Positions 2,872-21,464 of a stretch of 21,464 nt of DNA are shown one piece after another. A model generated the notes under the pieces. That model saw only the letters and a program-made list of their open reading frames with translations. It ran no database searches and had not been told where the DNA came from. The stretch spans positions 1 through 21,464 of IMG/VR virus record IMGVR_UViG_3300030331_000311. The stretch is one strand, 5' to 3'. The translations under genes and the position numbers were made by a program. The stretch's first letter is position 1. Every line of letters starts with the position of its first letter. The DNA is from a virus.

Positions 2872-2943
2872 GGTGGATAACCTGTGGATGTTATTGAATT
2901 AGGCGAACTAAAAGTATTTTGTAAATTTAATTTTTTATCCACA
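2872..2943. promoter_or_regulatory. Cluster of DnaA-box-like sequences in the capsid leader
   Basis: A perfect match to the bacterial DnaA box, TTATCCACA, occupies 2935-2943, its last base being the A of the capsid ATG. On the opposite strand 2872-2880 reads TTATCCACC (one mismatch) and 2883-2891 reads ACATCCACA (two mismatches). The first and last form an 8-bp inverted repeat (GTGGATAA 2873-2880, TTATCCAC 2935-2942). I saw no other exact copy in the window. This may be a real host-DnaA binding cluster or simply a leader inverted repeat; the sequence alone cannot decide. Confidence 0.3.
2897..2914 (+). promoter_or_regulatory. Candidate phage RNA polymerase promoter (phi10 position)
   Basis: The spacer before the capsid gene contains AATTAGGCGAACTAAAAG. 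With a single-base gap it lines up with the T7-class promoter of SP6 (ATTTAGGTGACACTATAG) and with the AATTA...CACTAAAGGG layout of T3. The core CGAACTAAAA (2904-2913) recurs as CGACCTAAGA at 18756-18765, upstream of the tail fiber, at nearly the same distance from the start codon (29 versus 30 nt). T7 has phi10 and phi17 at these two places. Initiation near 2914 would leave a leader of about 29 nt. A weak sigma70 reading of the same area (TTGAAT 2894-2899, TATTTT 2915-2920, spacing 15) is possible but poor. Confidence 0.42.
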
Positions 2944-4071: not shown

Positions 4072-4734
4072 ATGGGCATTAGAAACCAATCAATTACACA
4101 AGGACGTACTACGTTGTTAGACGCAGTAAATGTTTTGCTAGAAAATATTGGAGAGCAGCCCATAAACAGTTTAGAGACAGAGCAAATAGATGATTCTAAG
4201 CAAGCTGAAAGGACAATACTGGAGTTTCATAAAGAAGGTCAGACAAAAGGTTGGAGCTGGAATACAGAATTTCAATATCCTTTTCAAAAAGATTCAAGTA
4301 CAGGAGAGATAAAAGTTCCTGAAAATATTTTACAGTTTGCTTTAGATCCTTATTTATATGCTGGTCGGTATCAGTTAAGAGGTCAAAGAATATACGATCT
4401 ACAGGAAAGAAGATACATAATGGAATCAACAGTAACTGAAATTAAAGCTGATGTTATATGGTTACTAGCCTGGGATGATGTGCCAGAAGCTTACAACAGA
4501 TGGATAACAATAAGAGCTGCAAGAGTATTTTCTGATCGTGTATTAGGATCTGATGCTTTATTTAAATACACATCAAAAGATGAATTAGACGCAAAAATAG
4601 TTTTAGAACGCATGGAACAACAGCAAGAAGTGCCTAACATATTAACTGGTGGTCGTAATTACTTACCATTTCCTACTTATGATCCAGCGATGGGATTAGC
4701 AACAAGAAGAATAGGTACTGCATATAGACTATGA
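4072..4734 (+). CDS. Tail tubular protein A, T7 gp11 family
   Basis: The 220-residue product (T7 gp11 is 196) has the family's opening: LLDAVNVLLENIGEQPINSL near residues 16-35, then a helix with QAERTILEFHKEGQTKGWSWN near residues 44-64. Later segments with ALDPYLYAGRYQLRGQRIYD and RWITIRAARVFSDRVLGSD are also typical. Gp11 forms the dodecameric gatekeeper ring joining the portal to the tail nozzle. The gene is first after the terminator, preceded by a weak start context without a clear Shine-Dalgarno. Its stop overlaps the start of the nozzle gene (ATGA at 4731-4734), so the two tail tube proteins are translationally coupled. Confidence 0.94.
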   Translation: MGIRNQSITQGRTTLLDAVNVLLENIGEQPINSLETEQIDDSKQAERTILEFHKEGQTKGWSWNTEFQYPFQKDSSTGEIKVPENILQFALDPYLYAGRYQLRGQRIYDLQERRYIMESTVTEIKADVIWLLAWDDVPEAYNRWITIRAARVFSDRVLGSDALFKYTSKDELDAKIVLERMEQQQEVPNILTGGRNYLPFPTYDPAMGLATRRIGTAYRL

Positions 4735-7259
4735 GTTCTTTAACAAGTTATTCAATACCAAATTTAGCTCAGGGCATAAGCCAACAGCCTGATGCTCAAC
4801 GTGATCCTTCCCAAGCAGAAATACAAATTAATGGAATGTCTTCTATCGTAGAAGGTTTACGAAAAAGAGATTGTAGCGAAACAATAGGTTTAGTTTCTAA
4901 TAGTAGTTTTGGTGATTGTTTTATTCATAGTATTTTAAGAGATAAAGTAGAAGAATTTTTAGCAGTCATAACATCAAATACTATTAAAGTTTTTGATTTG
5001 GAAGGTAATCAAAAAACTGTAAACCCAGCAAGCAATGCTTATAATTATCTATCAACAATAACTGACGCAAAAACTCAATTAAGAGCTGTTACTATTGCTG
5101 ATTTTACATTTATAACTAATACGCTTACCAGCCCAGCAATGACAAATGACGTTGCACCTGTTGTTGCCAGGTCAACTACTCACGAAGCATTGATATGGGT
5201 TAGAGCTGCTACTTACGGACAAACATACAGAGTAAACATAAATGGTACGGAAGTAACGGTACAAACTGCGGTTGCACCTGTTGTTGCAAGTGGTAGCACG
5301 GTTACAGAAAATAGAATTAGTTCTGAAGATATTGCCACTAACATTATTAATGGATTTTCGTCTTTATCAGGCGTAAGTTTTTCCAGGAGTGGTGCTGTCA
5401 TACATGTCACATCTAATAATGCGATAACAATATCTGTATCTGATGCTAGGTCAAACGCTGATATAACTGCAATATTTGACAAAGTTCAAGCTTTTACGGA
5501 ACTACCAACTATAGCTCCAGAAAATTACCAGGTCACTATAGAAGGCGATCCAACAAATAGTTTTGATGATTTTCATGTATCTTTTGCACCTAAAAGTGGA
5601 ACATTTGGTGAAGGTACATGGAGTGAAACGGTAAAACCTGGCGATAAATACAAGATAAACAAAGATACTATGCCTCATTTATTAGTGGCATTACCAGATG
5701 GTACATTTTTCTTTGGCCCTGCAAATGGATCTACTCAATCAGGAACTATAAACGGTGTTGCCTGGGAAGTAAAAATTCCAAGTTGGGGAGAGCGTATTGC
5801 GGGAGATACAAATACAGCTCCAGATCCAAGTTTTATTGGAAATCCAATTAATGACATATTTATCTATAAAAACAGACTAGGGTTTCTTGCAGATGAAAAT
5901 GTAATACTTTCTAGGGTTAGATCATTGTTTAGTTTCTTTCCAGAAACAGTTACTACTGTTTTAGATAGTGACCCTATAGATGTTGTAGCCAGTAACAATA
6001 GGGTAAGTATTTTAAAATATGCAATACCTTACCAGGACGAATTAATTTTATTCAGTTCTCAATATCAATTTAGATTTAATGCAGCGGAAACAATATTAAC
6101 TCCAGCAACAGCACAAATAACAGTTTTAACGCAATTTGAAATAGATACAAATGTTAGGCCACAACTGGCTGGTGGAGGTATTATATTTTGCCAGGCAAAC
6201 GGTGACTTTTCACAATTTAGAGAGTTTAGTGTTCGTGGTGCTGGTACTGCCTTAACTGCTGATGCACAAGATTTAACAGGATATGTTTCCGCTTATGTAC
6301 CGAGCAGCGTATTTAAAATTACTGTTAATGACACAAGTAATGCTTTATTTGCATTAAGTCATAAAACAGGCTTTACCGATAGAATTTATGTTTATAAATA
6401 TTTTCTTAGAAGTGGTAGCGGTGGAGTAGAAAGAGCACAGTCAAGCTGGAGTCATTGGACTTTTGCTGGAGCAGATGAAATATTACAAGTTTTATGTATT
6501 AGAGAAACCTTGTTTTGTTTAATGAGATATGGCACAAAAGTATTTTTAGAAAAGATACCAGTACAAGATCGTAGCCCAGAACCCCCTTCTGGCAGCCCAT
6601 ATCCATTGTTATTAGATCGTAGGGTATCTACAACTACTGACACTCCAGCATCTATGAGAGTGGCTTCTGGAACTTATAACCCTACTGCAAACACAACCAC
6701 CTGGACTTTACCTTTTGCTGCTGCTGCCACTACTCAGGCATGGTCAGGATTTCATACTACTTTTAATGGCGGTGTTTTACTGTCAACAATAACTTCTGGT
6801 ACTTCAATAACTGCTTCTGGAAATTGGGCTGGTGCTCCAATATTCTTTGGTGAGCAGTATGAATTTAGATACAGGTTTACAAAATTCAAATTATATAAAG
6901 AAATTGGAGGGGGTAAAGCTGCTGCAAACGTAGAAAGAACACAGGTGAGACATGCAAAACTTAGATACCATGAAACTGCATACTTTGATATTGAAGTTAC
7001 GGCAGAAAGAAGAGATACATCTGTTTATAAATTTGACGGAACAGTATTAGGTAGCCGTATATCTTTAATAGGCTCTGCATTGCCTAACGGATACAACCCT
7101 GATGACAACAGGTTTAAAGAAGGTGTATTTACTATACCCATAATGTCCAGGGGAGAAAGATGTGTAGTTGAAATAAAGAATGACACACCGCATCCATGTA
7201 AGTTTTCTACTTGTGAATGGACTGCCTTAATTACAGGTAAAGCGAGGTCATTGCGATGA
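4731..7259 (+). CDS. Tail tubular protein B (nozzle), T7 gp12 family
   Basis: The 842-residue product (T7 gp12 is 794) starts with SIPNLAQGISQQPDAQRDP at residues 8-26 and continues SSIVEGLRKRDC, the conserved N-terminal signature of T7-type nozzle proteins. Six copies of gp12 form the tail nozzle below the gp11 ring. Later motifs FIYKNRLGFLADENVILSR (about residues 380-400) and SSQYQFRFNAAETILTPATA fit the beta-propeller platform. The mid-region around residues 150-260 (two TVAPVVA-like stretches and Ser/Thr-rich beta segments) probably adds a surface domain. The start overlaps the previous stop by 4 nt, and its own stop overlaps the next start by 4 nt (7256-7259). Confidence 0.95.
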   Translation: MSSLTSYSIPNLAQGISQQPDAQRDPSQAEIQINGMSSIVEGLRKRDCSETIGLVSNSSFGDCFIHSILRDKVEEFLAVITSNTIKVFDLEGNQKTVNPASNAYNYLSTITDAKTQLRAVTIADFTFITNTLTSPAMTNDVAPVVARSTTHEALIWVRAATYGQTYRVNINGTEVTVQTAVAPVVASGSTVTENRISSEDIATNIINGFSSLSGVSFSRSGAVIHVTSNNAITISVSDARSNADITAIFDKVQAFTELPTIAPENYQVTIEGDPTNSFDDFHVSFAPKSGTFGEGTWSETVKPGDKYKINKDTMPHLLVALPDGTFFFGPANGSTQSGTINGVAWEVKIPSWGERIAGDTNTAPDPSFIGNPINDIFIYKNRLGFLADENVILSRVRSLFSFFPETVTTVLDSDPIDVVASNNRVSILKYAIPYQDELILFSSQYQFRFNAAETILTPATAQITVLTQFEIDTNVRPQLAGGGIIFCQANGDFSQFREFSVRGAGTALTADAQDLTGYVSAYVPSSVFKITVNDTSNALFALSHKTGFTDRIYVYKYFLRSGSGGVERAQSSWSHWTFAGADEILQVLCIRETLFCLMRYGTKVFLEKIPVQDRSPEPPSGSPYPLLLDRRVSTTTDTPASMRVASGTYNPTANTTTWTLPFAAAATTQAWSGFHTTFNGGVLLSTITSGTSITASGNWAGAPIFFGEQYEFRYRFTKFKLYKEIGGGKAAANVERTQVRHAKLRYHETAYFDIEVTAERRDTSVYKFDGTVLGSRISLIGSALPNGYNPDDNRFKEGVFTIPIMSRGERCVVEIKNDTPHPCKFSTCEWTALITGKARSLR

Positions 7260-7702
7260 AATGGATAGAGCCTAACGAAAAAGTTATACAGGAAATTGGT
7301 TTAGCAATGAGAGAGGCCGATGAACTAGAAGTACGTCTAAGTCATGACCTAGATCCTTTAACTGCTGTTATGGAAAGTGCTAAAAATTCTGATATTTGCA
7401 GAGCCATAGAAGGAGACAATGGAGATCCAGTTGGCTTAACTGGTGTCACTAATCAATCTATTTGGCTACTAGGTACGGACGGATTGACTGCTACAAAAAA
7501 TCATAGGAAAAAATTATGTATTGATGGGCGTAAATGGGTTGAATATTGTTTAGATAAAACAGGAAAACCTATAGGTAATTGGGTGTATCATAAAAATAAA
7601 TCGTCAATAAAATGGTTAAAACATCTTGGTTTTACGGTAGAAGACCCAAGACCTTACGGCCATTCAAGAGATTTATTTTGTCAATTTTGGAGGATTAATT
7701 AA
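7256..7702 (+). CDS. Internal virion protein A, T7 gp13 family, GNAT-like fold
   Basis: The 148-residue product matches T7 gp13 (138) in length, position and its diagnostic C-terminal segment: residues 106-126 contain IGNWVYHKNKSSIKWLKHLG followed by F126, against the T7 pattern of Trp-Asn-Tyr-Val, Asn-Thr-Ser-His-Ile and Phe-Leu-Lys-x-x-Gly. The Asn near 114 and the W-L-K-x-L-G-F ending resemble the last strand-helix of GNAT acetyltransferases, but I see no acetyl-CoA loop (Q/R-x-x-G-x-G/A), so catalysis is doubtful. In T7 gp13 is needed for correct incorporation of the internal proteins. A GAGG at 7244-7247 is 8 nt before the ATG. Its stop overlaps the next start by one base (TAATG). Confidence 0.85.
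   Translation: MKWIEPNEKVIQEIGLAMREADELEVRLSHDLDPLTAVMESAKNSDICRAIEGDNGDPVGLTGVTNQSIWLLGTDGLTATKNHRKKLCIDGRKWVEYCLDKTGKPIGNWVYHKNKSSIKWLKHLGFTVEDPRPYGHSRDLFCQFWRIN
7689..7693 (+). promoter_or_regulatory. Shine-Dalgarno for the gp14-like gene
   Basis: GGAGG lies 8 nt before the ATG at 7702, one of the few strong ribosome sites in the window. It supports that start and suggests independent initiation despite the TAATG overlap. Confidence 0.6.
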
Positions 7703-8484
7703 TGATTGCACCAGCAGTAGGTTTTGGTATTGTTTCTGGCGGTCTTAATTTTTTAAGCGGAATAGCAAACTATCAGGCACAAAGACAAGATTATGTTAAT
7801 AAATTAGCTTATAAAAAAGCATCTGATGAATTTGCCACCTGGTCTGCCAGGCAGCAAGCATCTCAAACAGATTTAAATAATCAATATAGGTTTTGGGGAG
7901 AAAAAATAAATTATGGTCAAAGTCTTGCATATACAAATTCTCTTAGAAATTATGAATTAAGCAAAGCAATAGTTAGTGCAGAAGAAGTTACAAGAGCAAG
8001 GGCATCTGCTGGTGCAGATTACATAAGTACAAGCGAAGCGTTTGCTCAAGGGTTTCAACAAGAAGCAATGTCTGATGCCGTAGCTTTATATCAATACAAT
8101 GTGCAAGCATTAAAAGCTAGAAGTACTATTGCAGCGGGTGCTACTGAAGGGCCATCTGTAGATAGGTTGATGAATGATTACGCAAGACAGGTAGGAGATT
8201 TTACAACGTTAAAACGTATCAATGATGGATTCAAAGAAGGTCAATACAACAGGCAGCAAGCTGGTGCTGTATCTCAATTTTTAAATCAATACAATAGTCA
8301 GCAGTTTTATCAACAGCAAGAGTATCTTGATCCTATTCCACCATTTGCTCCATTGCCTACTTTAATTGGCCCAGCAGGGCCATCAATGGTTGGCAGCGGG
8401 CCAAGTGCAGGGGCAGCATTACTTGGTTCTGTTGCTGGTGGTTTATCTGCTGGGTTATCTACTTATGGAGCGTTGAAAGCGTAA
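7702..8484 (+). CDS. Internal virion protein B, T7 gp14 family
   Basis: The 260-residue product (T7 gp14 is 196) begins with a Gly/Ala-rich hydrophobic stretch, then long Ala/Gln-rich helices with YQAQRQDYVNKLAY near residues 24-38 and EEVTRARASAGADYISTSEA near residues 95-115. The C-terminus is Gln/Tyr-rich, then Pro/Gly-rich, and ends in a small hydrophobic Gly/Ala segment (about residues 225-258). In T7, gp14 is the first protein ejected and forms an outer-membrane pore continuing the tail. The Gly/Ala hydrophobic ends fit membrane insertion. The call rests on order, size and this composition. TAATG overlaps occur at both ends (7700-7704 and 8482-8486). Confidence 0.82.
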   Translation: MIAPAVGFGIVSGGLNFLSGIANYQAQRQDYVNKLAYKKASDEFATWSARQQASQTDLNNQYRFWGEKINYGQSLAYTNSLRNYELSKAIVSAEEVTRARASAGADYISTSEAFAQGFQQEAMSDAVALYQYNVQALKARSTIAAGATEGPSVDRLMNDYARQVGDFTTLKRINDGFKEGQYNRQQAGAVSQFLNQYNSQQFYQQQEYLDPIPPFAPLPTLIGPAGPSMVGSGPSAGAALLGSVAGGLSAGLSTYGALKA

Positions 8485-10730
8485 TGGTACAAGAACTTCC
8501 AAAAAATCAATTAAATCCTACTGCCAAGCCAGTAAATAGATTTTTGTCTTATAGGTCAGAACAGCCCGCTGCACCACCTAAGTTAGTAGAAATGCCGACT
8601 CCAAAAGGTGTCAATATTATTCAACGATCTAACGAGATGAATGTTCAAGGCTACAACAGCTTTAAACAGTTATCTGACGCTTTAAAGCAAACAAGCCAGG
8701 CTGTTAGTCAGCTAGGGCCAGTTGTTAAAAGCATTGAAGAGCAGAAAGGTAGAAATGATGTTTTAAAAGCTTACGCATTAAGCAATAAACAAGCTATAAA
8801 TAATGCAGAAAATTACGCTGCAACTAATAAGCAAGTGTCCAGGGAAGATGCCATTGCAGGCATGATGATGGATGAAGTTAATCCCTGGAGGCAAAAGGCA
8901 AGAGAAGACCAACTTAGTAAATTAGCTGCTGGTGAAGCTGGTATATATATGGATAGGGCCTACAACAAATATGCGGCAGAGATAGTATCTTTAGATCCTT
9001 TAAACCCAAGATTAGATCAAATAAAAGCAGAAGCCGTTACGCAATTAGCTCAAGATTGGGGGGTTGATGAAACAAGTGCAAGTTTTATTGATTTTACAAT
9101 TCCTTCTGTGAACAAGTCATGGCAGGGTTTTAACAGTAAGCATTTAAAAGCATATACAAAATTTCAAAAAGAATTACAAAAAACATTAACTAAAGCACAG
9201 CTATACCAGGCATTAACAAATTGGAAAAAAGAAGAATTAACAGAAAATGATTTAGTAGCAAGTTTAGGAACTATTCTTAATGACCAGGTAAAAAAATTAG
9301 GTTTACCTTTAGAGCCAACAGAATTTAAAAAGGATGTTTTATTGGCATTAAGAGCACAGCTTGAAGTAGAAGCTATAGATCCAAACAATAAACATTCCCA
9401 AAGAGCTGCTAGTTATCTAGGAATGTTAGAAAGTGTGCCAGTACACATGGTTACAGATGACGAAGGTAATGTCACAAAAATAACTACTGCTGGTGAAATG
9501 TTTGGTGCAGATTTTCTTATTGAATCTAATAAAATTGGTAATGCTGCACATCAAATAAATAAAAGAAGAGAAGAGGCGGCAGAAAAAGATTTTGTTCTTA
9601 AATGGGCCGAAACTATTGTTCCATTAGAAAAAGGTAGTGCAGAATATAACGCTGCTGTAGCTGAATTATTATCAGATGATAGCTTGCAATATGCTAAAAG
9701 AATAAAACTGTTCCAGGAAATAGATCAGTTAGATGAAACTGCTGCAAAAACTACATTTAATACTGCACCTGTAGAAGAAATATTTGCATTAAATCAAAGC
9801 AGGCATGGGGTTAAATACGATGAAGTTGCAGTTAGAAAAGAATTAACTGAAGCATTAGCTGGTATTCCACCAGAATTAGCAGCATATAAAACAAAGAAAT
9901 GGCAAGAATTTGCAACCATGACAAGACAAAAAAGATCTGAAGCTAGTGGTGCGTACGAAACAACCATAATTAATAAAAAAATAAAAGAAGCTACGCAGTT
10001 ACAAGTAGATACTTACTACAAAGATTTTGGCCCTTTGTATTTGGATAAAAATTTAGACTTAAGCAAACTTGATATGGATGCTTACATAAGTAATTTAAAG
10101 CCACTTCAGCAGGGAGGAGCTATGACTTATAGCGGAACATTAGAGGATAAAGTATTTGCAGATTTAACTAACGAAATAAACCAAAGAGGTAATTTAGATC
10201 CAGCAGAGCAAACACAAGTAATTGTTAAAAGTATTACTGAATTTAATAAAGACAAAGAAGCTATAAAAAATATGTTTCCTTTACCAAAAGTTAAACAAAA
10301 AAAAGATCAAAAACAAATAGATATTCCACCCGCTTACAGTCTTGGTGCGGGAGATACAATTCCTATGTCAAGAATAGAAAAAAACGACTATAAACAGTTT
10401 CCATTATTTAATAAAGAAAGCACACAAAAAGTATTGAAATTGGTAATGGAGGGAAATCCTATACCTGTACCTATGCGATCAGCAGCAAATAAATACAATA
10501 TCTCGCCATATCAGTTACTTATTGATACTTTAGAGCATTATAAAGATGAAGAGTTTTATCCTAATGAAGACACAAAAAACTTTCTTTTAAGAAAAGGAAA
10601 CAAGCTGAAAGGATTAAAAGATTCAGCTAAAGGGTTTTCTCCAGGAACAGGTCAATTATCTGATGCTACTAATTACATTGCTTATGTTTTAAGTGGCACA
10701 GCACCAAAACGATTTATTTACAGAGGTTAA
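8484..10730 (+). CDS. Internal virion protein C, T7 gp15 family
   Basis: The 748-residue product is essentially the same length as T7 gp15 (747). It is almost entirely helical and soluble-looking with no signal peptide or membrane segment. Residues 55-80 (SFKQLSDALKQTSQAVSQLG) and the later MMDEVNPWRQKAREDQLSKL fit the gp15 N-terminal helical bundle. The C-terminal 150 residues contain NKYNISPYQLLIDTLEHYKD and end TAPKRFIYRG. In T7, gp15 forms a hexameric periplasmic tube with gp16 for DNA transit. No lytic transglycosylase motif was found, so the muralytic function has not moved here. The ATG overlaps the upstream stop by one base; 3 nt separate it from the next gene. Confidence 0.85.
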   Translation: MVQELPKNQLNPTAKPVNRFLSYRSEQPAAPPKLVEMPTPKGVNIIQRSNEMNVQGYNSFKQLSDALKQTSQAVSQLGPVVKSIEEQKGRNDVLKAYALSNKQAINNAENYAATNKQVSREDAIAGMMMDEVNPWRQKAREDQLSKLAAGEAGIYMDRAYNKYAAEIVSLDPLNPRLDQIKAEAVTQLAQDWGVDETSASFIDFTIPSVNKSWQGFNSKHLKAYTKFQKELQKTLTKAQLYQALTNWKKEELTENDLVASLGTILNDQVKKLGLPLEPTEFKKDVLLALRAQLEVEAIDPNNKHSQRAASYLGMLESVPVHMVTDDEGNVTKITTAGEMFGADFLIESNKIGNAAHQINKRREEAAEKDFVLKWAETIVPLEKGSAEYNAAVAELLSDDSLQYAKRIKLFQEIDQLDETAAKTTFNTAPVEEIFALNQSRHGVKYDEVAVRKELTEALAGIPPELAAYKTKKWQEFATMTRQKRSEASGAYETTIINKKIKEATQLQVDTYYKDFGPLYLDKNLDLSKLDMDAYISNLKPLQQGGAMTYSGTLEDKVFADLTNEINQRGNLDPAEQTQVIVKSITEFNKDKEAIKNMFPLPKVKQKKDQKQIDIPPAYSLGAGDTIPMSRIEKNDYKQFPLFNKESTQKVLKLVMEGNPIPVPMRSAANKYNISPYQLLIDTLEHYKDEEFYPNEDTKNFLLRKGNKLKGLKDSAKGFSPGTGQLSDATNYIAYVLSGTAPKRFIYRG

Positions 10731-10733
10731 GTC

Positions 10734-13700
10734 ATGCCATTAGAACAAGATCCAAACACAAATGAATTAATTACTAAACCTGTCGAGGAAGAAGAAACTC
10801 TTGTAGCAGAAGTTGAGGAAGAAACAGAGAAGAAACAAGGAGAACTTGATCATCCTTGGTGGGATGTAACAGAAGGCAGAGGTGGTGCAGCATTAGAGTC
10901 AGTTAAAAATTTTGCTGGCAAAGTAAAAAAAGGTAATGTTACAGGCGGTGATGTTGGTGATTTATTTGGTTCATTATTGCATTTACAAGCTGAATTAACT
11001 TTGCCTGAGCATTTAGATAATACTTATGCTTTAGGAACAATCAAAGCTATTGGTAATGCTACAAAGGCTATTACTGACATGAGAAAAGGAGATTATACAG
11101 ATTATGCAATAGGTAGAGGTGCGGACGAATTTGTAGAAAGTGGATATAAAGCAGGCGGTTTTAAGCCTCCTTCAGAAATGACAACCGCTGAAAAAAGAGG
11201 TGATGATTTTAGGTCATCTTTAATGTTAAATGCTTATTTAGCGGCTGCTACAATCCCTGCTGGAGCGTTACTAAGTGCCTCTAAGATTCCTTTTGTTGTT
11301 AAAGCAGTTCAAGGTTTAGATCCTACAAAAGCAAAAACATTTATGAGGGCAATAGGTAGGGTTGCTGCAATAAATGCCATTGATGAAATACCAAGCACAT
11401 TCTTAGATGACAATAGAGGAAACTTTGGTACTAAACCTGGAATGAGTTTTTCTGAGGCATCAAATGCTGCTTTTGGATATAATTTAGCTCTTTCTTCTAC
11501 GGCTGCGGTTGGCTTAAATGCAATACCGTTAAAACAGCTTTTTGCAAAAAGAGCAAAAGAATTAAAACTTTTTCAGGAAGCTAAAAGAGCATTAAAAGGG
11601 GAATCTATGACTACCCCAAGAAGGATGTATAGAAATACGCAAAAAGCTAATGGAATTATCACAGAGGATGCTGGTGGTAAATTTGCTTTCACAAAAAACG
11701 TAGATCCTGATGGCACTAATGCTGAAAAAGTTACAGCAAAAACACCAGAATCAGATTCAGTTGAAGAGGCATTACAAAATTTAGATAATACATTAATAGC
11801 AGAAGTTGATAAGGTAGAAACAAACATACCTGAAGTAATAGAACAAATATCTAAAAGAGCTGGTGACGGTGATCAACAACCTTTAAGATATAGCGATGTA
11901 TCTGCACCGACAGAAAGCCTTGCAATAACTGATATTAATGCTCGTATAGGACAAGTGCCAACAGATAATTTAATGTCTCTTGCAAATCCTAAAAATGGCA
12001 CAGAGTTGTTTGACGTAATATCAGATGCCACAGGCAAAGAATTTGAAGAATTTACAAGAGTAGATGTTGTTAATGGTATTAAAAAATTAGAAGGTGAAGG
12101 CAGAACATTAATGCCTAACAGGTTAATGGGCATGCCATATATTAATGTAAATGAAATAAAGTTAGATCCAGTTAGGTTTCAATATAAAGGCGGTGTTGAT
12201 GCTCAAGGAGTACAAAAAGGTCAATCATTAGAAGGTGTAGAAAAATGGAATAACGATGCAGAAGGTGTAGTACAGGTATGGGAAGATTCAGACGGAATAG
12301 TTAATATGGTTAATGGACATAACAGATTGCAAAAAGCAAAAGAATTAGGCATACCTTCAGTTAAAGTTGAATTTTTAGATGCTCCAGATGCTATAACTGC
12401 GAGGCAACAAGGAGCATTAACTAATATTGCTCAAGGTGGTGGCACTCCTTTTGATGCTGCTAATTTCTTAAAAGAATCAAACATAACAAGTCCAGAGCAA
12501 TTAACAGATATAGGAGTTCCGTTAAAGTCTGGTTTAGGAGCTAAAGGTTTAGCTCTTAGCAAGTTGCCGCAAAATATTTACCAGGACGTATTAGACGGCA
12601 AAATATCACAAAACAGAGGATTCTTGCTTGGTGGTAGTGGTCTTGATGAAACTGGCATGCAAACTGCATATAAAGTTTTACAAAAGAAAGATGTAACTGA
12701 CGCAACTTTTTCTGAAGTATTGCAACAAGCTAAAAATGCTCCTACAGCAGAAGGCGGCCAAGTTGATTTGTTTGGTAATACAGAAATGTTGAATTTAATG
12801 ATTGAGAAGGGCCAGTTAGCAGCATCTATTAGAAGAAATTTAGTTCAGGATCGTAATTTATTTAGAAGAGCTGGTCAAGGTGCAGATAGACTAGAGGCTG
12901 CTGGTAGTAAAATTGACAGGTTTGAAGCTGCAAATCAAAAGAATTTTGCTGAATCTGCAATAGCACAGTTTGATGCTGACAAATATGCAGATACAAATAT
13001 AAGCAAATTATTAAACGAAGGTGCAGAACAGATTGGTCAGGGAGCAAAAGTTGGAGTAGTCACAAGAAGAATACAGCCAAAAATAATAAATGAAATATTA
13101 GATAATCCTGTCTTACCTACTAAAACACCTGAAATACAAACAGAATTACCTACTGCAACAGAATTACCTAGTAGGCAGGCAATGATAAACAATATAATTA
13201 AAAAAGCTGCAATGAATGGAGAAGTAAGGCCTCCTAGTACACCTTTAATACAAACTCCTAAGCCGTCAGACGTAAGCATCAGCAAAGTAATTAAAGAGCT
13301 AGACGAAGGTATAGAAAAAGGTCAGATAGAAGCAAGTGACGATGCAATACGTTTGTTTAGTGACGAATTAAGACTTGGCGATGAACACAAAACTTTAGAT
13401 GACGCTATAAATGCAGATCGTGTTGCTGCCAAAAGGGATGAAATAGGTTGGGATAATATGACTTACGAGCAGAAAAAGAATAAAGATTTTTTAAAAATTA
13501 TGGAAGAAAGTAGCAAAAAATTTGTTAGGCAAATGGAAACTGATCCTATTAATAAGTTAAAAAAAGAAATTCCTACTTTATCCGTAGATCAATTACAAGC
13601 TAAAAAATTAGAGTTAGAAAAAGGTGGCTATCCACTTACAAAAAGAGTTGCAGGCAATATACAAAGAAAAAGAAATCAATTCCCTTATGTAGAAACTAGA

Positions 13701-15293
13701 CAAAAAGCCGAACAAGCAAGATTAGATTTAGTTTCAGATGAAAATTTAAATAAAATATATAAAGATGGCGAAGAAATAGGTGATCAAATATTTGAAGCAG
13801 AATTGAAAAGAATTGAAGAGTTAGAAGCAAATGCGTCTAATAGTTTAGATCCAAGATTAATAGGTCAAGCAGAGTATGACCTGGTGTTAAATGAATTAAA
13901 CAATAAAACTACGCAAGGATTTAAATTACCTAATGAATTTGCAAGAATGAAACCTCGTTACGGTTTAGGTGAAATTGAATTTGATAATGATTTAGATAGG
14001 GTTGCATACATTATTAGAAGTAAAGCTAAAAAATCTGCAAGAGAAGATGACATAATTGCAATGCTAAAACAGCAAGGTGTAGATCCTGACAAGGCAAGAG
14101 CACATGGAAGCAAGGTGCATCAATTTGTAAAAAACTATGTAAAAGAAGAAACTGGTAGTGCTGCTGCAAACAATGCTGCGGGTATGGTCATAAAAGTACC
14201 TGACCAGGGATTCTTTGAAGCACCAAGCATGAGTTTTGCTCCAAATGTTGATTTTACTGGCGGTACTTATAACGAGGCAAACGTAAGGAGAGCATTAGAG
14301 TTGTATAAACAAAGGTTAAAAATTAACCAAATGGATCAACTTGCTGATTATGGACAGCGTATTGCAGATGATGCAGAAGGTATTTTGAATCAAAGCAAAG
14401 AGTTGGCTTATGAAGCAAATAAAGCTTTAAAAGAAGCGATGATTATTTCTGGTATAGAACCAGGCAAAGTTAAATTTTTAGATGAACTTAATATGGATCA
14501 AATGTTTTCGTTTGAAGATAATGTAAGATCTACTGCACAATGGCGGCCTGACATAGCTACTTTTATGGCTCGAAATCCTTCTGATCCATTAAGTAATATG
14601 GGGGTGGGTCAAACTTCGGCAATATTTGTTCCTCCTGATTATCAGGGCGCAATGAGAGGTTCGATTTATTTGTCTCTTCATGGAAATTTGAGAAGACGTT
14701 TAGGAGGCGAGTTATCAGGTGTTTCACAGAAAGGTAGGAGATTTTTTGCTGATGCTGGTCATGAAGCATTTCATGCTGTGCAGGCTATGTTAAATAATTT
14801 AGGTGATAAAAGGTTAGCTAATGCTTTAGAACAGCCAAAAGCTATAGAAGAGATGATTTCTATTATTAAACGATCTCAGGGTAATTTTCAACCTGGTATG
14901 AACAATAAAGAAATACAAGCGGAAGCATTTGGTCAATGGTTTAGCGACAGGACAGTAAAATTACAAGACGGTGGATTAAAAGCTGTATTTGAAAGAGCTA
15001 AAAAATATTTAAATGAATTTGGTAGAAAATTAAGATTAATACTAAAAAAAGATCCTACCTATGTTGATGTTTTTGAGTTAGCAGCAAGCGGTGCTATTGC
15101 AAGGAAGTCAAAAGTAAATAAACTTACACCAATACAACTAGAAACCATGATAGGTAAAATGGATGCTGAATTAGATCGAAGCATCCCTGAGCTAACGCAG
15201 CGTATTAATGATTATTTGGTCACTAAAAAGATTGAATATGAGAATATGCTTAACGGTTGGAATGATTCTGTAGCAAAAGGAGGTTGTATCTAA
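10734..15293 (+). CDS. Polyvalent-type internal virion protein: ParB-like plus HExxH metallopeptidase
   Basis: This 1519-residue protein sits where T7 encodes gp16 but shows a different architecture. Residues 1-45 are very acidic; residues 162-180 are hydrophobic. A ParB-like module spans about 469-560 with the G528-H529-N530-R531 motif, followed by KLPQNIYQDVLDGKISQNRG (610-629), closely resembling the ParB helix-turn-helix region. Residues 1075-1134 (GEIEFDNDLDRVAYII) resemble a module common in phage polyvalent proteins. Near the C-terminus GHEAFHAVQ gives a zincin site, H1343-E1344-x-x-H1347, with E1397 in EIQAEAF (or E1393) as the likely third ligand; GSIYLSLHGN precedes it. No lytic transglycosylase motif is seen. 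AGAGGT at 10722-10727 is a fair ribosome site. The likely role is an injected DNA-binding, protease-like effector that also fills the gp16 structural slot; that role is inferred. Confidence 0.75.
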   Translation: MPLEQDPNTNELITKPVEEEETLVAEVEEETEKKQGELDHPWWDVTEGRGGAALESVKNFAGKVKKGNVTGGDVGDLFGSLLHLQAELTLPEHLDNTYALGTIKAIGNATKAITDMRKGDYTDYAIGRGADEFVESGYKAGGFKPPSEMTTAEKRGDDFRSSLMLNAYLAAATIPAGALLSASKIPFVVKAVQGLDPTKAKTFMRAIGRVAAINAIDEIPSTFLDDNRGNFGTKPGMSFSEASNAAFGYNLALSSTAAVGLNAIPLKQLFAKRAKELKLFQEAKRALKGESMTTPRRMYRNTQKANGIITEDAGGKFAFTKNVDPDGTNAEKVTAKTPESDSVEEALQNLDNTLIAEVDKVETNIPEVIEQISKRAGDGDQQPLRYSDVSAPTESLAITDINARIGQVPTDNLMSLANPKNGTELFDVISDATGKEFEEFTRVDVVNGIKKLEGEGRTLMPNRLMGMPYINVNEIKLDPVRFQYKGGVDAQGVQKGQSLEGVEKWNNDAEGVVQVWEDSDGIVNMVNGHNRLQKAKELGIPSVKVEFLDAPDAITARQQGALTNIAQGGGTPFDAANFLKESNITSPEQLTDIGVPLKSGLGAKGLALSKLPQNIYQDVLDGKISQNRGFLLGGSGLDETGMQTAYKVLQKKDVTDATFSEVLQQAKNAPTAEGGQVDLFGNTEMLNLMIEKGQLAASIRRNLVQDRNLFRRAGQGADRLEAAGSKIDRFEAANQKNFAESAIAQFDADKYADTNISKLLNEGAEQIGQGAKVGVVTRRIQPKIINEILDNPVLPTKTPEIQTELPTATELPSRQAMINNIIKKAAMNGEVRPPSTPLIQTPKPSDVSISKVIKELDEGIEKGQIEASDDAIRLFSDELRLGDEHKTLDDAINADRVAAKRDEIGWDNMTYEQKKNKDFLKIMEESSKKFVRQMETDPINKLKKEIPTLSVDQLQAKKLELEKGGYPLTKRVAGNIQRKRNQFPYVETRQKAEQARLDLVSDENLNKIYKDGEEIGDQIFEAELKRIEELEANASNSLDPRLIGQAEYDLVLNELNNKTTQGFKLPNEFARMKPRYGLGEIEFDNDLDRVAYIIRSKAKKSAREDDIIAMLKQQGVDPDKARAHGSKVHQFVKNYVKEETGSAAANNAAGMVIKVPDQGFFEAPSMSFAPNVDFTGGTYNEANVRRALELYKQRLKINQMDQLADYGQRIADDAEGILNQSKELAYEANKALKEAMIISGIEPGKVKFLDELNMDQMFSFEDNVRSTAQWRPDIATFMARNPSDPLSNMGVGQTSAIFVPPDYQGAMRGSIYLSLHGNLRRRLGGELSGVSQKGRRFFADAGHEAFHAVQAMLNNLGDKRLANALEQPKAIEEMISIIKRSQGNFQPGMNNKEIQAEAFGQWFSDRTVKLQDGGLKAVFERAKKYLNEFGRKLRLILKKDPTYVDVFELAASGAIARKSKVNKLTPIQLETMIGKMDAELDRSIPELTQRINDYLVTKKIEYENMLNGWNDSVAKGGCI
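15278..15283 (+). promoter_or_regulatory. Strong Shine-Dalgarno that fixes the start at 15293
   Basis: AGGAGG at 15278-15283 lies 9 nt before the ATG at 15293 and directly against the TTG at 15284. Only the ATG has workable spacing, so the longer TTG reading (three extra residues) is rejected. It is the best ribosome site in the window and lies inside the upstream coding sequence. Confidence 0.75.
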
Positions 15294-18200
15294 TGTCTAA
15301 ATGTGATGATTTATTTGAAAAACGTCAATCTTTAATAAGAAAAAAGGCAGAAGTTGACGAGCAGATAGCAAGGATGAAGACAATACAAATGTCTAATCAA
15401 ATGCCAAATGATGATACGTTCCTGGATGCAATGGATCGTACTGCTAAATATTTAGAAGATTTAGAAACACAAAAATTTATTAAACAATCTATAGAAGCTA
15501 AAAAGAAACCAGGTGTAAGTATTCCGCAGAATCAACCTACTAATTTTGTAAAAGAATTAAGAGATAGGCCAGAAGATGTTGTAGCTAATTGGGCTAATTA
15601 TTCGCAGGCATTATTAAGAGCTGGCAAAGATACATTAGATTCCAGGTTTGCATTTTTAAATTCTGATCCATTAAAAAGTGCTCAAATGTTATCGGACGCT
15701 TATGACGGTAAATTAAACATAAACCAAGCGTTAGATGCTGTTAATAAACTAACTGAAGGTGATAAAACATTTGTAGAAGACTTGGTTAGAGCTAGATGGT
15801 TTCATGACAAAGGCAAAGAAGCTTATATAAAAGCTGTTGATGATATTGATATATTTATGGAAAGAAATCCTAATGCAGAAGTACCAGCAGAGCTATTAGG
15901 CAAAACTTTCAATACTTACAAGTTAGCTTTAATGAGTGAAGCTACTTATGATTTTTATAGAAACCAATGGTCTAAAGCTGGTAGAGCACAGCAAGGTAGA
16001 TTATTTCCTGACCAGTTAGAGGTAGTGAATGATGCTGGGTCTGTTATACCTGACAATATAAAAACTGCTGAAGCTTATGTAGATTCTTTAGGTATCCAGG
16101 GCAAAAAGATTACCGACACAACAGAGGAAGAATCTATATCAAGAGTAATTACTGCTGCTTCCGAAAATATAACAAGACCAAAAGAGGCGATGGGTCAGTT
16201 AAATCTTGAATTAAATAATATAAGAATACAAGGTACAGACGTTAGAAAAAGATATGATCCTAAAATGGTAAAAGATGCCAGGTTTAGACATACAAATTTA
16301 TTAGCAAAAGATTCCCAATTATTTAATTTAAGAACTATGGGCCTTGCTTTTAGTTCTAATGTAGCTATGGCAATAAGAGGGCCGTATCATGCTTTATACA
16401 AAAACACTTTTTACAGACCATACGGAACATCTTTATCACAAGGTTTTATGGAAGCATGGCAGGCAAACTGGAAAGGTTACGCTGCTGCATATAAAGCTGT
16501 AAGGGAGTCAGGGAAAGAATTGTTTATGGATGCCTGGAAAGGTGACAGAATGTTTTATTCGAGCAATGTAGAGACTTATGGTAAGTTTTATGAACCAGTA
16601 GAAAAGAGAATTGCTGAACTAGAAGCTGATTTAAATGTAGAAGGAAATTGGAAAAGTTATTTAAATCCAGAAAAATACAGAAGAGAAATACATGCTGCTA
16701 CACGTTTATGGTTATTTAGAAAGACAAAACACCCAGCGGCATTAAGACCAGGATTCTCCGCACTAGCAGCTTTAGATGCACCCTTTGGTTACGGCTATCA
16801 TGTCTATAAATTAAGAACAGATTTAGAAATACAAGCTAGAAGAAATGGAGTTCAGCTAGGTTTATTTGACGAAGAATCAATAAACAAATATGTAAATGAT
16901 AAATTTGCAGAACAATTTTATAAATTAGACCCAACAGAAGCACAGATAAAAGCTTATAGACAAGAACAAAATATTCCACCTGGAATAATGGATGATAGGG
17001 CTGTTGCCGATGAAATTATAGAAACTAGAGTTGCTAACACTTATGGAGGGCCAGTTAATTTAGATGACCTTAGCAGAGGTGCGTCTGAGTTTTCACAAGA
17101 CATGAGATTTCAAAGTCCTCCTGGCGAGGGTAACTTTTTAGGTAAAAAATTCTATGAAGTTGTTAATGGAGCTAGGCAGTCATCTCCATTGTTTGACATT
17201 ACTATTGCACCATACCTTGTTGCACCAATGAAAGGTGTTTCGTTAGACATGAAAGGTCTTGGTTTTGCAAGTATTAATGATTGGATAGGTCACGCTACTG
17301 GTGCTAGAAGGTTAAGTCCAGAACAGATAGCTAGTGCAAAATCCGATGCAATACTTGCAATGCACATTTGGAGCATGGCTCTTATAGCAAAAGCTAATGA
17401 TCAGATAATAGGTAATGGGCCAACAAATCCTACAGAAAGGGCGGCATGGCTTACAGAACTAAAAGCAAAAGGCAAGAAACCTAACAGCATGTTTGGTGTA
17501 CCTTTAATTGGTGGTTTACCTATTGTTAATACTATGTTTTTGATAAGTGACATAATTGATTCTGGGCAAACAGCGGTGAGAAGTGATTTTGACAAAAAGA
17601 AAATAGCTGGTGCAATCCTAGATGTATTAGTAGGAAACATTGTTAGAAATACGTCTTTAGGTACTATTTCACAAATATTTGACCTTGCTTATGGTGATCA
17701 GTACGGAAGAAGAAGGCCGATGAATCTATTTGGTTATATAGGTGGCAGTCAAATACCAGGCATAGGAATTATAAGAAGCACAGAAAGAGCAACAAACTCA
17801 CAAAAATCTGATTTATATAGAGATGCACAAATAACTAAAAAAGATGAAGAAATATATGATATTGGTGTTTTAGAAAATGCAGAAAGATTTTTAAAAAATG
17901 CTGCATATAGCGTGACAGGTCTTGCTGGTGTAGCTGGTGGTTCTTACAAAGATAAAGATTGGTTAGGGTCTAACATAAAATTGCCTTTTGGTATGGAACT
18001 TGTTCATTACTTAGAACATAGATTTTTCCCTCATTTGCATCCAAACGATAAAGTATATGCTGAATTGCAAATGCTGGAGCTATTAGAACCACCAAATCCA
18101 TTGTTAAGAAAAAGATTAATGGATGTACCAATGGACGATGATTTACAAAAAGAATTTAACGATACTTATGGGTCTATTGCTCCAGGAGCAAATGGTGTAC

Positions 18201-18715
18201 CTATGCTTGGGCCAGTTGCAAGGGCAGAACTAGGTGGGTCTAACAAGTCAATAAGAATTAGTTTACCTGTATTTGTAAATTTAAAAAGTTTAGGAATTAG
18301 ACAGAAAACATCAAAAGAAATAGTGGATATAAAAATTAATCCGTTACTTGAAAAGCATGTATTTGACGAAAAAGGTAACGGCAGAATATTTATAGATGCT
18401 GCCAGGTCACTAATGAATGATCCTATATATATAAACATGCAAGCAGACCCAACAACTACTGCTGATGTAAGAGTGGCAGATAAAACTAATGCAGATTTAA
18501 AAAGGATGCCTGGATACTTAATGATGGCTCAACTAAAGAAATATTATGAATTGATTACAACAGATGCTATAGGTAGAAGTGATTCTGCCGCAGCTTTAAA
18601 ATGGCAAGAACGTACTAATATGCTAGAGATTGAGCTAAGAGATCAGGCTTTAACAGAAGCGAAAGCTACAGTAAATAATTTATCTAGCCAAAATCCTGTT
18701 CTTGAGTCAAAATAA
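15293..18715 (+). CDS. Large internal virion (ejection) protein, second half of the gp16 position
   Basis: The 1140-residue product starts at the ATG at 15293, which overlaps the upstream stop by one base (TAATG). Residues 1-35 are charged and helical (DEQIARMKTIQ), probably a coiled coil. Residues 630-647 (SSPLFDITIAPYLVAPMKG) resemble the proline-aromatic segment of the large polyvalent-protein-associated domains near phage ejection modules (LPD38 type). Two hydrophobic segments follow, 686-701 (ILAMHIWSMALIAKA) and about 733-755 (MFGVPLIGGLPIVNTMFLI), suggesting membrane insertion. A Gly-rich stretch NLFGYIGGSQIPGIGII lies near residue 815. The likely role is a virion-packaged protein forming the inner-membrane part of the DNA conduit, like the C-terminal bulk of T7 gp16. 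I could not match a catalytic domain. It is followed by an 80-nt spacer. Confidence 0.65.
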   Translation: MSKCDDLFEKRQSLIRKKAEVDEQIARMKTIQMSNQMPNDDTFLDAMDRTAKYLEDLETQKFIKQSIEAKKKPGVSIPQNQPTNFVKELRDRPEDVVANWANYSQALLRAGKDTLDSRFAFLNSDPLKSAQMLSDAYDGKLNINQALDAVNKLTEGDKTFVEDLVRARWFHDKGKEAYIKAVDDIDIFMERNPNAEVPAELLGKTFNTYKLALMSEATYDFYRNQWSKAGRAQQGRLFPDQLEVVNDAGSVIPDNIKTAEAYVDSLGIQGKKITDTTEEESISRVITAASENITRPKEAMGQLNLELNNIRIQGTDVRKRYDPKMVKDARFRHTNLLAKDSQLFNLRTMGLAFSSNVAMAIRGPYHALYKNTFYRPYGTSLSQGFMEAWQANWKGYAAAYKAVRESGKELFMDAWKGDRMFYSSNVETYGKFYEPVEKRIAELEADLNVEGNWKSYLNPEKYRREIHAATRLWLFRKTKHPAALRPGFSALAALDAPFGYGYHVYKLRTDLEIQARRNGVQLGLFDEESINKYVNDKFAEQFYKLDPTEAQIKAYRQEQNIPPGIMDDRAVADEIIETRVANTYGGPVNLDDLSRGASEFSQDMRFQSPPGEGNFLGKKFYEVVNGARQSSPLFDITIAPYLVAPMKGVSLDMKGLGFASINDWIGHATGARRLSPEQIASAKSDAILAMHIWSMALIAKANDQIIGNGPTNPTERAAWLTELKAKGKKPNSMFGVPLIGGLPIVNTMFLISDIIDSGQTAVRSDFDKKKIAGAILDVLVGNIVRNTSLGTISQIFDLAYGDQYGRRRPMNLFGYIGGSQIPGIGIIRSTERATNSQKSDLYRDAQITKKDEEIYDIGVLENAERFLKNAAYSVTGLAGVAGGSYKDKDWLGSNIKLPFGMELVHYLEHRFFPHLHPNDKVYAELQMLELLEPPNPLLRKRLMDVPMDDDLQKEFNDTYGSIAPGANGVPMLGPVARAELGGSNKSIRISLPVFVNLKSLGIRQKTSKEIVDIKINPLLEKHVFDEKGNGRIFIDAARSLMNDPIYINMQADPTTTADVRVADKTNADLKRMPGYLMMAQLKKYYELITTDAIGRSDSAAALKWQERTNMLEIELRDQALTEAKATVNNLSSQNPVLESK

Positions 18716-18795: not shown

Positions 18796-21464
18796 ATGCC
18801 ACTTTCTTATGCCACCTTTACTGGAAATTCTGGAAGTCCACAACATACTTTCACAATTCCTTTTAATTACATTCTTAAAGATCATATAAAAGTTTATTAT
18901 GGTCGTGATATTTTAGCCAATACACAAACAGCATTATTAGTAAGCGGAACAGATTATAACTTCACTAGCGATACAACAATACAATTAATAGGTTCAACAA
19001 TAAACTCAGGAACAGCTACTGGAAATCCGCATAATTTAGCTAATGGTGTTGTCTTAACTCTTGAAAGAGATACTCCTGATAGTAGTCAGATTGTTGAATT
19101 TGCAGATGGATCAAACCTTATTGGTGATAACTTAAATAATGCAAATTTACAGAATTTATTTGTTGTCCAGGAGCAGCAAGATAAGAATGATTTATCTGCT
19201 GCTAAATCCATATCTGCTGAAACCGCATCTACTACAGCTACTAATAATGTTGCAACTTTAAGTGCTACGCAATTCAGGTCTGATGGTAGTCAGGCTATGA
19301 CAGGAGATCTTAATGCTGGTAATAATAAAGTTAAGAATGTTAGTGACCCTACCAATGCACAGGATGCAGTAACAAAAGCATACCTGGAAAGAACTGGTAG
19401 TATTCAATCGGCACAAATATTAGACGGAACTATTGTTGATGCGGACATTAATGCAAGTGCAAACATTGCTGGATCTAAGGTGCAGGCAGCTTCTGGGTCT
19501 AACCCTGGTACGTTATCAGCTAGTGATAAAAGCAAACTAGACGGAATTGAATCGTCAGCTAAGGACGATCAGACAGGTGCAGAAATAAAGTCATTGTACG
19601 AAGGGGAAAGCGATACTAATGCGTTTACTGATGCAGAAAAAACAAAGCTATCAAACATCGAATCGTCAGCAAAAGATGATCAAACTGGATCTGAAATTAA
19701 ATCATTATATGAGTCACAAAACGACACTAATGCTTTTACTGATGCAGAAAAAACAAAATTAGCCAGTATAAATGCGTCTTTTATTAAAACACAATATGAA
19801 TCTAATGCTAATACAAATCCATTAACTGATGCAGAAAAAGCAGTTATAGATGGAGTTACGGCAAATACTTCTGAACTGAATAAATTAGATGGTTTTACAG
19901 GTGATGTAAATGATTTAAACCAAATATCAGGAATGGATAAGCAAACCACTATTACAAATAGTGATGCTCATTTTCCTACCTCTGGTGCTGTTGTAGATTT
20001 TGTAGCTAATCAAATAGCTCCTGTTGGTGGATTGGAAGTTATAGCGGATGAAGATAGTTTCCCTGCAACACAACCAGTATCAGGTGTTGTTATAAGTATT
20101 TCCAATGCTGATGGTCTTATTATTAATAATGCTGGAGAAGCAAGTAATGCCAGGACAGTAGGAAGTGGTTCTGACAATGTTACTATTAAAAACTTTCCAG
20201 CAAGTTTGAGAAATAAAACCTTGTCTCCAAATTTAGGATTACTTGTCAGTTCTACTGGTGCTGCACAAGAATATAATTATCACAAGTTATTGGCAAAAGA
20301 AGAAGATGTACTGCAATTATCTGATGATATAAATGATTTTAACGCTAGATATAGAGTAGTTTCTTCTAATCCTACAAGCAATAATGATGCAGGGGATTTA
20401 ATATTTAATACTTCTACTCAGAAATTATTAGTTTATAACTCAGTATCAGGCGCTTTTGAAGAAGCACAATCTGTTGGTAACTTCTTTATATCTACACTTA
20501 GCCCTGCATTTGATGGCAGTACTCAAAATTTTACAATTACAAATGCACCAAGTAATGCACAGCAAATAATTTTAAGTATTAATGGTGTAATACAAAAGCC
20601 GAATAGTGGTACATCTACACCGTCAGAAGGTTTTGCGTTAGATGGCAGCACAATTAAATTATCTGCCGCCCCTGCAAATGGGTCAGATTATTTTGCAATA
20701 GTTCTTGGTTCTACTGTAAACATTGGAACTCCCAGCAACGACACAATAACGTCAGCAATGATTATTGATGGCAGTATCCTTAATGCTGATATATCATCTT
20801 CCGCTGGAATAGAAGGCAGTAAATTAAGTCTTGTCTCTACATCATCTGCTCCTGGACTAGAAGTAAAAGGTGATGGATCTTCTGATGGGTACTTGCAGCT
20901 TAACTGTAGTCAGAATAGTCATGGTGTAAAGCTAAAATCCCCACCGCATAGTGCAAATGCAAGCTACACATTAACGCTCCCAAATAATATTGTTAATGGT
21001 CAATTTTTAAAAACAGATGCCAATGGTAATTTAAGTTGGTCTGCTGTAGTTACTGACCTGGTCAATGACACCTCACCACAGCTAGGCGGTAACTTAGATA
21101 CTAATGGTAATAATATTAGTTTTGATGACAATGACCAACTACGGTTTGGTAATGCAACTGGTGGAGATATAGTTATTAAACATACTACCAGTGATAATAA
21201 TGGGCATATAGAAAATCATACTGGTGATTTATTAATATCAACAAAAGGTGCTGGTGATGATATAAAACTTTTATCACAAGATGATGTTTTCATAAGAGAT
21301 GATACTGACACCACTACTATGGCTGCATTTATTCAAGGAGGAGCAGTAGAGCTATATCACAACGGCAGTAAAAGGCTGGAGACTATAAATACAGGTATTA
21401 ACGTAACAGGCAGAATAGGTATAGGTACTACAACTCCTAGTTATGACATTCATAGTTATGTTGC
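18796..21464 (+). CDS. Tail fiber protein, T7 gp17 family N-terminus, 3' partial
   Basis: The frame is open from ATG 18796 to the right edge: 889 codons and 2 bases, already far longer than T7 gp17 (553). Residues 1-140 match the T7 tail-fiber N-terminal domain that docks on the tail: FTIPFNYILKDHIKVYYG, VVLTLERDTPDSSQIVEFAD, NLNNANLQNLFVVQEQQD. Residues 170-195 (MTGDLNAGNNKVKNVSDP) form the usual shaft start. Residues 241-343 are tandem repeats. A segment near 570-640 (FTITNAPSNAQQIILSINGV, then IQKPNSGT) is a beta domain common in marine phage fibers. The visible end, GRIGIGTTTPSYDIH, is the type of motif preceding an intramolecular chaperone (S74 peptidase) domain, which would lie beyond the window. 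It should determine host receptor binding. Start chosen for fit to the family N-terminus. Confidence 0.92.
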   Translation, partial: MPLSYATFTGNSGSPQHTFTIPFNYILKDHIKVYYGRDILANTQTALLVSGTDYNFTSDTTIQLIGSTINSGTATGNPHNLANGVVLTLERDTPDSSQIVEFADGSNLIGDNLNNANLQNLFVVQEQQDKNDLSAAKSISAETASTTATNNVATLSATQFRSDGSQAMTGDLNAGNNKVKNVSDPTNAQDAVTKAYLERTGSIQSAQILDGTIVDADINASANIAGSKVQAASGSNPGTLSASDKSKLDGIESSAKDDQTGAEIKSLYEGESDTNAFTDAEKTKLSNIESSAKDDQTGSEIKSLYESQNDTNAFTDAEKTKLASINASFIKTQYESNANTNPLTDAEKAVIDGVTANTSELNKLDGFTGDVNDLNQISGMDKQTTITNSDAHFPTSGAVVDFVANQIAPVGGLEVIADEDSFPATQPVSGVVISISNADGLIINNAGEASNARTVGSGSDNVTIKNFPASLRNKTLSPNLGLLVSSTGAAQEYNYHKLLAKEEDVLQLSDDINDFNARYRVVSSNPTSNNDAGDLIFNTSTQKLLVYNSVSGAFEEAQSVGNFFISTLSPAFDGSTQNFTITNAPSNAQQIILSINGVIQKPNSGTSTPSEGFALDGSTIKLSAAPANGSDYFAIVLGSTVNIGTPSNDTITSAMIIDGSILNADISSSAGIEGSKLSLVSTSSAPGLEVKGDGSSDGYLQLNCSQNSHGVKLKSPPHSANASYTLTLPNNIVNGQFLKTDANGNLSWSAVVTDLVNDTSPQLGGNLDTNGNNISFDDNDQLRFGNATGGDIVIKHTTSDNNGHIENHTGDLLISTKGAGDDIKLLSQDDVFIRDDTDTTTMAAFIQGGAVELYHNGSKRLETINTGINVTGRIGIGTTTPSYDIHSYV
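19516..19824 (+). repeat. 37-residue tandem repeats in the tail fiber shaft
   Basis: Two adjacent 111-bp units (19516-19626 and 19627-19737; residues 241-277 and 278-314) share the pattern D-x-x-K-x-KL-x-x-IESSAKDDQTG, EIKSLYE, DTNAF. A third, shortened unit of 29 residues (19738-19824) keeps TDAEKTKLASI and QYESNANTNPL, and a fourth TDAEK begins at residue 344. The amino-acid match between units 1 and 2 is high, but about 11 of 17 identical codons in the best-conserved stretch use different synonymous triplets, so the duplication is old or the codons are under diversifying pressure. Confidence 0.85.

Follow-up and report, generated by a model that had tools for sequence, protein, structure and literature searches.

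A ParB-zincin protein and a gp16 core protein predicted to share the gp16 slot of T7-like phages

What is the large protein encoded between gp15 and the tail fibre of this T7-like virus, and what might it do as phage DNA enters the cell? The stretch of DNA analysed (the window) is an IMG/VR virus record of 21,464 bases, on which the genes, all on the + strand, follow a T7-type late order of portal, scaffold position, capsid, gp11, gp12, gp13 position, gp14, gp15 position, a protein of 1519 residues, a gene product here named gpX, and tail fibre. Matches to PHROGs identified the portal (gp8-like, 362..1981; phrog_449, head-tail adaptor, E 5e-149), the major capsid protein (gp10-like, 2943..3968; phrog_267, E 3e-57), tail tubular proteins A (gp11-like, 4072..4734; phrog_446, E 1.8e-43) and B (gp12-like, 4731..7259; phrog_457, E 6.5e-197) and the gp13-position internal virion protein (7256..7702; phrog_308, E 9e-25, with a weak Pfam gp13 match). 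The gp14-like ejection protein (7702..8484) was recognised through Pfam (PF24072, T7_gp14, E 2.6e-9), and these family matches bear out the T7-like setting proposed in a preliminary description of this DNA. The scaffold position (gp9-like, 1984..2829) was assigned from its place between portal and capsid and its alignment with an S31-C1 protein that is annotated as functioning in capsid assembly, and the gp15-like ejection protein (8484..10730) from position, size and synteny in relatives, with no similarity to T7 gp15 detected by hhalign. Direct similarity to T7 gp14, gp15 or gp16 was likewise not detected with hhalign. The ORF for the 1519-residue protein (10734..15293) was confirmed from ATG to stop. 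It follows gp14 and gp15 as the third of the ejection genes, and gp15 immediately precedes the corresponding gene in nearly all T7-like relatives.

The preliminary description had assigned this protein to the gp16 slot. Its position directly after gp15 agrees with that assignment, but it accounts for only the first half of the slot, which consists of two genes because the gp16 C-terminal core sits in the following gene, gpX (15293..18715, 1140 residues). Comparison using hhalign matched gpX to the C-terminal core of P-SSP7 gp16 (91.5%, E 8.5e-7) and to the C-terminal region of the fused proteins of P-SCSP1-type phages (95.7%, E 9.6e-9), with the fused C-termini in turn matching P-SSP7 gp16 (95.5%, E 1.6e-8). 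Both T7 and P-SSP7 also carry gp16 after gp15; T7 gp16, however, showed no similarity detectable by hhalign to either the 1519-residue protein or gpX, and profiles of the ParB, zincin and module regions described below gave no match to gp16 of T7 or P-SSP7. Whereas T7 gp16 has an N-terminal transglycosylase (PMC8954989), the N-terminal half of the slot here has ParB and zincin domains, and no lytic transglycosylase match was obtained for the 1519-residue protein with Pfam or PHROGs; this N-terminal transglycosylase is not universal among podophages (PMC8954989). A model of gpX built from 30 sequences (average confidence near 72) gave no significant match to the PDB. A Shine-Dalgarno sequence, AAAGGAGG, lies at 15276..15283 (+) within the last codons of the ParB-zincin gene, before the overlapping TAATG start of gpX, an arrangement pointing to translational coupling of the two genes. 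The conserved C-terminal Gly-Cys of the 1519-residue protein coincides with this Shine-Dalgarno region (15276-15295), and ParB relatives often end in EGC.

In P-SCSP1-type phages the ParB, module, zincin and gp16 C-terminal regions form one chain of approximately 2260-2630 residues. In Prochlorococcus phage P-SCSP1 (MPP-C) this is gene 21 (2571 residues; PMC9860041), which lies in the order gp14, gp15, fused protein, fibre and possesses NGHNR and HESFH with a Glu, but as a single chain rather than two genes. Genes 20 and 21 of that phage were suspected of encoding internal virion proteins on the basis of size and position (PMC9860041), with both left unannotated and no domains reported for gene 21. 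Among the computational evidence, nothing argues more strongly than this fusion that the 1519-residue protein belongs to the ejection apparatus. Of the named relatives, Nohivirus S31C1 (uncultured phage MedDCM-OCT-S31-C1) is the nearest to share the two-gene arrangement, and its proteins of 1484 and 1145 residues include all three domains; identity to the window is approximately 30%, the phage is known from a fosmid only and the proteins are annotated as hypothetical. Its T7-like genome was also found to have an integrase gene overlapping a tRNA (L251:38785-39869) and a phage-type RNA polymerase. The open-licence literature yielded no description of ParB within an ejection protein of a T7-like phage, and virion proteomics turned up for none of the family members.

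The ParB domain (residues 474-756; 12153..13001, +) comprises an Srx/CTPase-like part and a helix-turn-helix. An AlphaFold2 model of residues 440-1519 (alignment of 33 sequences, mean pLDDT 72) was searched with Foldseek and matched structures of ParB, Noc and KorB, the best being 7bnr (E 3.1e-5, probability 1.00), with a target TM-score of 0.64 for Caulobacter crescentus ParB (6t1f_D). The match spans approximately 200 residues and thus covers both the CTPase-like half and the helix-turn-helix DNA-binding half, in agreement with the ParB fold that the preliminary description had expected around residue 528. Although the predicted fold is shared with these CTPase clamps, sequence similarity is low: a profile of 54 ParB sequences matched Noc and ParB of the PDB at E ~0.009, aligning VNGHNR with AGERR. 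The counterpart of the GERR phosphate motif is GHNR, confirmed at residues 528-531 (12315..12326, +) of the ORF translation and found as NGHNR in 42 of 43 ParB domains of the survey described below; R531 and an Asn of the second nucleotide motif (ENxQR) are kept, whereas other residues stand in place of the Glu and first Arg of GERR. Residues 472-768 also matched phrog_21 (E 3.3e-33), whose label "portal protein" is inapplicable, as only its C-terminal positions 1023-1326 match. Assignment to the DdrB-ParB family (PF18763) was rejected, since P1 DdrB matched it at 1.8e-39 and the window protein did not, and hhalign of the ParB profile against P1 DdrB was negative. The domain is thus, by profile and predicted structure, ParB/Noc-like and not DdrB-type. 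A search for parS-like palindromes in S31-C1, P-SCSP1a and the window yielded none above shuffled sequences. Members of the same ParB family were also observed on contigs L053 (391-11512) and L058 (4958-11845), which represent other phages; there they lie close to portal and Mu F-like head genes (Pfam PF06381, PF04233).

The predicted zincin-like metallopeptidase domain (residues 1270-1464; 14541..15125, +) was delimited by profile, model and alignment. Its HEAFH motif (residues 1343-1347; 14760..14774, +), located there in the preliminary description, is the sole HExxH of the protein. In an alignment of 29 diverse zincins, some as little as 12% identical to the window, the only invariant residues were H1343, E1344, H1347 and E1393, which upholds the zincin signature of an HExxH and a Glu on a following helix; among the survey proteins, HExxH with a downstream Glu was present in 32 of 32 zincins, a regularity that, like the NGHNR count, exceeds what chance would give. 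The downstream Glu had been given as E1397, a residue that is not conserved (Ile in S31-C1 and P-SCSP1a), and the predicted third zinc ligand is instead E1393 (14910..14912, +), within an E-x-x-A-x-A-F motif (EIQAEAF). In the model, the HExxH helix (1337-1355; model 898-916) is followed by two short helices and the long helix bearing E1393 (1391-1411; model 952-972). No zincin structure was among the 50 Foldseek matches listed for the residue 440-1519 model, where ParB dominated, and the zincin profile gave only chance-level matches to the PDB. In the reading favoured below, the predicted zincin would be a real peptidase.

Between the two domains lies an LPD-like module (residues 1063-1140; 13920..14153, +), which contains the polyvalent-type segment noted earlier at residues 1075-1134. 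By hhalign (97.3%, E 1.9e-11) it recurs in a protein of Sphaerotilus phage R1 (Krylovirinae) that occupies the gp16 position and bears the annotation internal virion protein. P-SCSP2 has the module as well, as do giant phage proteins, among them one with additional ddrB-ParB, helicase, RadC and ART-PolyVal domains. Because of this distribution across the R1 protein, P-SCSP2 and giant polyvalent-domain proteins, the label polyvalent-type is fair for the module, though it has no Pfam LPD match. None of the named Pfam polyvalent domains (LPD, MPTase, ddrB-ParB, ART) exceeded the curated cut-off in either the window protein or the 33 aligned members, such a match being a naming aid and not a strict definition of polyvalent proteins; NCBIfam likewise gave nothing above cut-off for the 1519-residue protein. 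An ART domain suspected by eye in P-SCSP1a received no support from Pfam. The 1519-residue protein does join several disparate predicted activities (ParB fold, zincin signature and module) in one large polypeptide, and is encoded in a phage late-gene context adjoining virion genes. The polyvalent proteins described by Iyer et al. 2017 (PMC5512222) are likewise large products of phage late genes in which ParB, MPTase and LPD-type modules are combined; the part of that source drawn on here gives no T7-like gp16 example, and the ParB domain of the window differs in not being of the DdrB type. A further enzyme domain within a gp16-type protein was observed on contig L161 (5393-11380), where the gpX core is joined, in a protein of 1996 residues, to the LPD-like module and a domain of zeta-toxin type (Pfam E 3.1e-9).

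A scan of IMG/VR seeded with gpX, covering metagenomic contigs and with iterative-search E-values relative to the fetched loci, gave 68 new loci, with the upstream gene off the contig or not visible in 14. Every gpX gene with a visible upstream neighbour (54/54) was preceded by a member of the ParB-zincin protein family. The detected domains of these neighbours, among which very divergent ones could be missed, were ParB, module and zincin in 19, ParB only in 14, ParB and zincin in ten, zincin only in six (one of these a fragment at a contig edge) and ParB with module in five, so that 19 of the 54 are without a detected zincin. The survey of the gp16 locus proposed in the preliminary description thereby shows an arrangement, unfamiliar to its author among T7-like phages, to be widespread, and in the sequenced cyanophage isolates P-SCSP1 it is fused into one chain. 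This slot, ordinarily the source of the largest protein for DNA injection, codes for two proteins in a large, mostly uncultured T7-like phage group. Two of the contigs (L177 and L178) were binned as Cyanobium and Sphingomonadaceae genomes, giving possible host hints. Zincin-only orthologues possess counterparts to window residues 75-365, 814-1008 and 1150-1518 and lack the intervening ParB stretch; the N-terminal scaffold (residues 75-365; 10956..11828, +) is retained at 31-33% identity (blastp). Since these orthologues match around the missing ParB, the scaffold appears to be constant and ParB and zincin optional, and as each of the two is missing from otherwise orthologous proteins, neither would be essential to the conduit. 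Purifying selection was evident across all regions, strongest in ParB (dN/dS ~0.07-0.11 against the window) and the module, with zincin at ~0.23-0.29.

We favour, with a probability of roughly 0.7, the reading that this is an ejection protein of gp16 type, split in two, with exchangeable polyvalent cargo in its N-terminal half. The gp16 of these phages would be split into, or built from, two genes, with gpX retaining the C-terminal core and the 1519-residue protein providing a conserved scaffold that accommodates polyvalent domains as cargo. This 1519-residue protein is probably packed in the virus head, in an internal core with gp14, gp15 and gpX, and injected with the DNA. In T7, the head first releases gp14, gp15 and gp16, which build a tunnel, and a cytoplasmic DNA-binding role has been assigned to gp16-C (PMC8954989). 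By analogy, the ParB/Noc-like half would meet the leading DNA and may bind it. The most likely use of the zincin would be self-cleavage, by which the ParB half would be released from the envelope-bound conduit, cutting of host proteins being less likely. Self-cleavage is among the functions proposed for polyvalent MPTases (PMC5512222) and, we infer, would fit the place of the zincin between ParB and the gp16 core; with 19 of 54 paired proteins without a detected zincin, such cleavage cannot be universal. Counted in favour of the split ejection protein were gene order, the 54/54 pairing with gpX, the P-SCSP1 fusion, the matches to P-SSP7 gp16, the R1 module, the invariant catalytic residues, purifying selection, the ParB fold match and ejectosome density of P-SCSP1u, a phage that encodes the fused ParB-zincin protein; this internal density is visible but unresolved in slices of the map, according to the PhiM1 paper (PMC11440229). 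Counted against it were the dissimilarity of T7 gp16 to either half, the gpX model without a significant PDB match, the proteins without a detected zincin, and the cryo-EM study of P-SCSP1u, whose models cover just the portal, adaptor, nozzle, fibre and capsid and not the products of genes 20 and 21 (PMC10575957).

Some of these observations may be explained otherwise. The protein could be a late morphogenesis factor whose zincin processes itself, gp15, gpX or the scaffold in the prohead while the ParB half aids core assembly or DNA packaging, with no action in the host required. Proteolytic processing before packaging is described for P1 DdrB, a protein of the head that combines ParB and MPTase domains (PMC5512222), and the strict conservation of the zincin active site would suit such a peptidase; a general maturation step is argued against by the 19 of 54 proteins in which gpX and gp15 stay and no zincin is detected, and we regard this explanation as possible but doubtful. 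Exchange of domains between orthologues is what would be expected of arms-race cargo, and one giant protein, of a class proposed as injected (PMC5512222), combines the module with helicase, ART-PolyVal, RadC and ddrB-ParB domains. Both are consistent with the counter-defence role suggested in the preliminary description; in this reading ParB and zincin would be injected effectors disarming host defences, and the conduit only a delivery route. However, no target or link to defence was found, and ParB is the most conserved part of the protein, unlike arms-race effectors, which often evolve fast; this role seems unlikely to us.

A purely structural role, in which the ParB and zincin folds are inactive building blocks of a large tunnel protein, would account for GHNR in place of GERR and the altered ENxQR, and ejection proteins are generally large and poorly conserved. 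It is improbable given that the zincin invariants are H, E, H and E alone, and gain or loss of ParB and zincin while the scaffold remains would be odd for tunnel walls. Within the split ejection protein reading, one quite speculative extension, to which we give little credence, is that the ejected ParB half is a nucleotide-gated clamp which would load onto the leading phage DNA upon its emergence from the tunnel, there to serve as an entry ratchet (or a nuclease-protective coat), the zincin cutting the clamp from the conduit. If true, genome internalisation in these phages would be partly driven by an injected ParB-type clamp.

The favoured reading would join two hitherto separate fields, the ejection tunnel of T7-like phages and polyvalent injected proteins, and the analysis assigns predicted domains to a large set of proteins currently labelled hypothetical. 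Among orthologues in the gp16 slot, the gain or loss of ParB, module or zincin offers a natural series for studying the role of each domain at DNA entry, and a cultured host and phage are available (Prochlorococcus MED4 and P-SCSP1).

Downstream of gpX, the tail fibre gene (gp17; 18796..21464, +) is truncated at the contig end and matched phrog_21412 (E 6.5e-133), with its N-terminus matching phrog_2710. Compared to contig L001 (18062-20155), the fibre is 63% identical over residues 1-342 and then divergent, while neighbouring proteins of that contig are approximately 83-99% identical; this divergence points to an exchange of fibres. Identities of contig L008 (1-8091) to the window are mosaic (ParB-zincin protein 89%, gpX 76%, fibre 97%), which suggests recombination within the ejection cluster.
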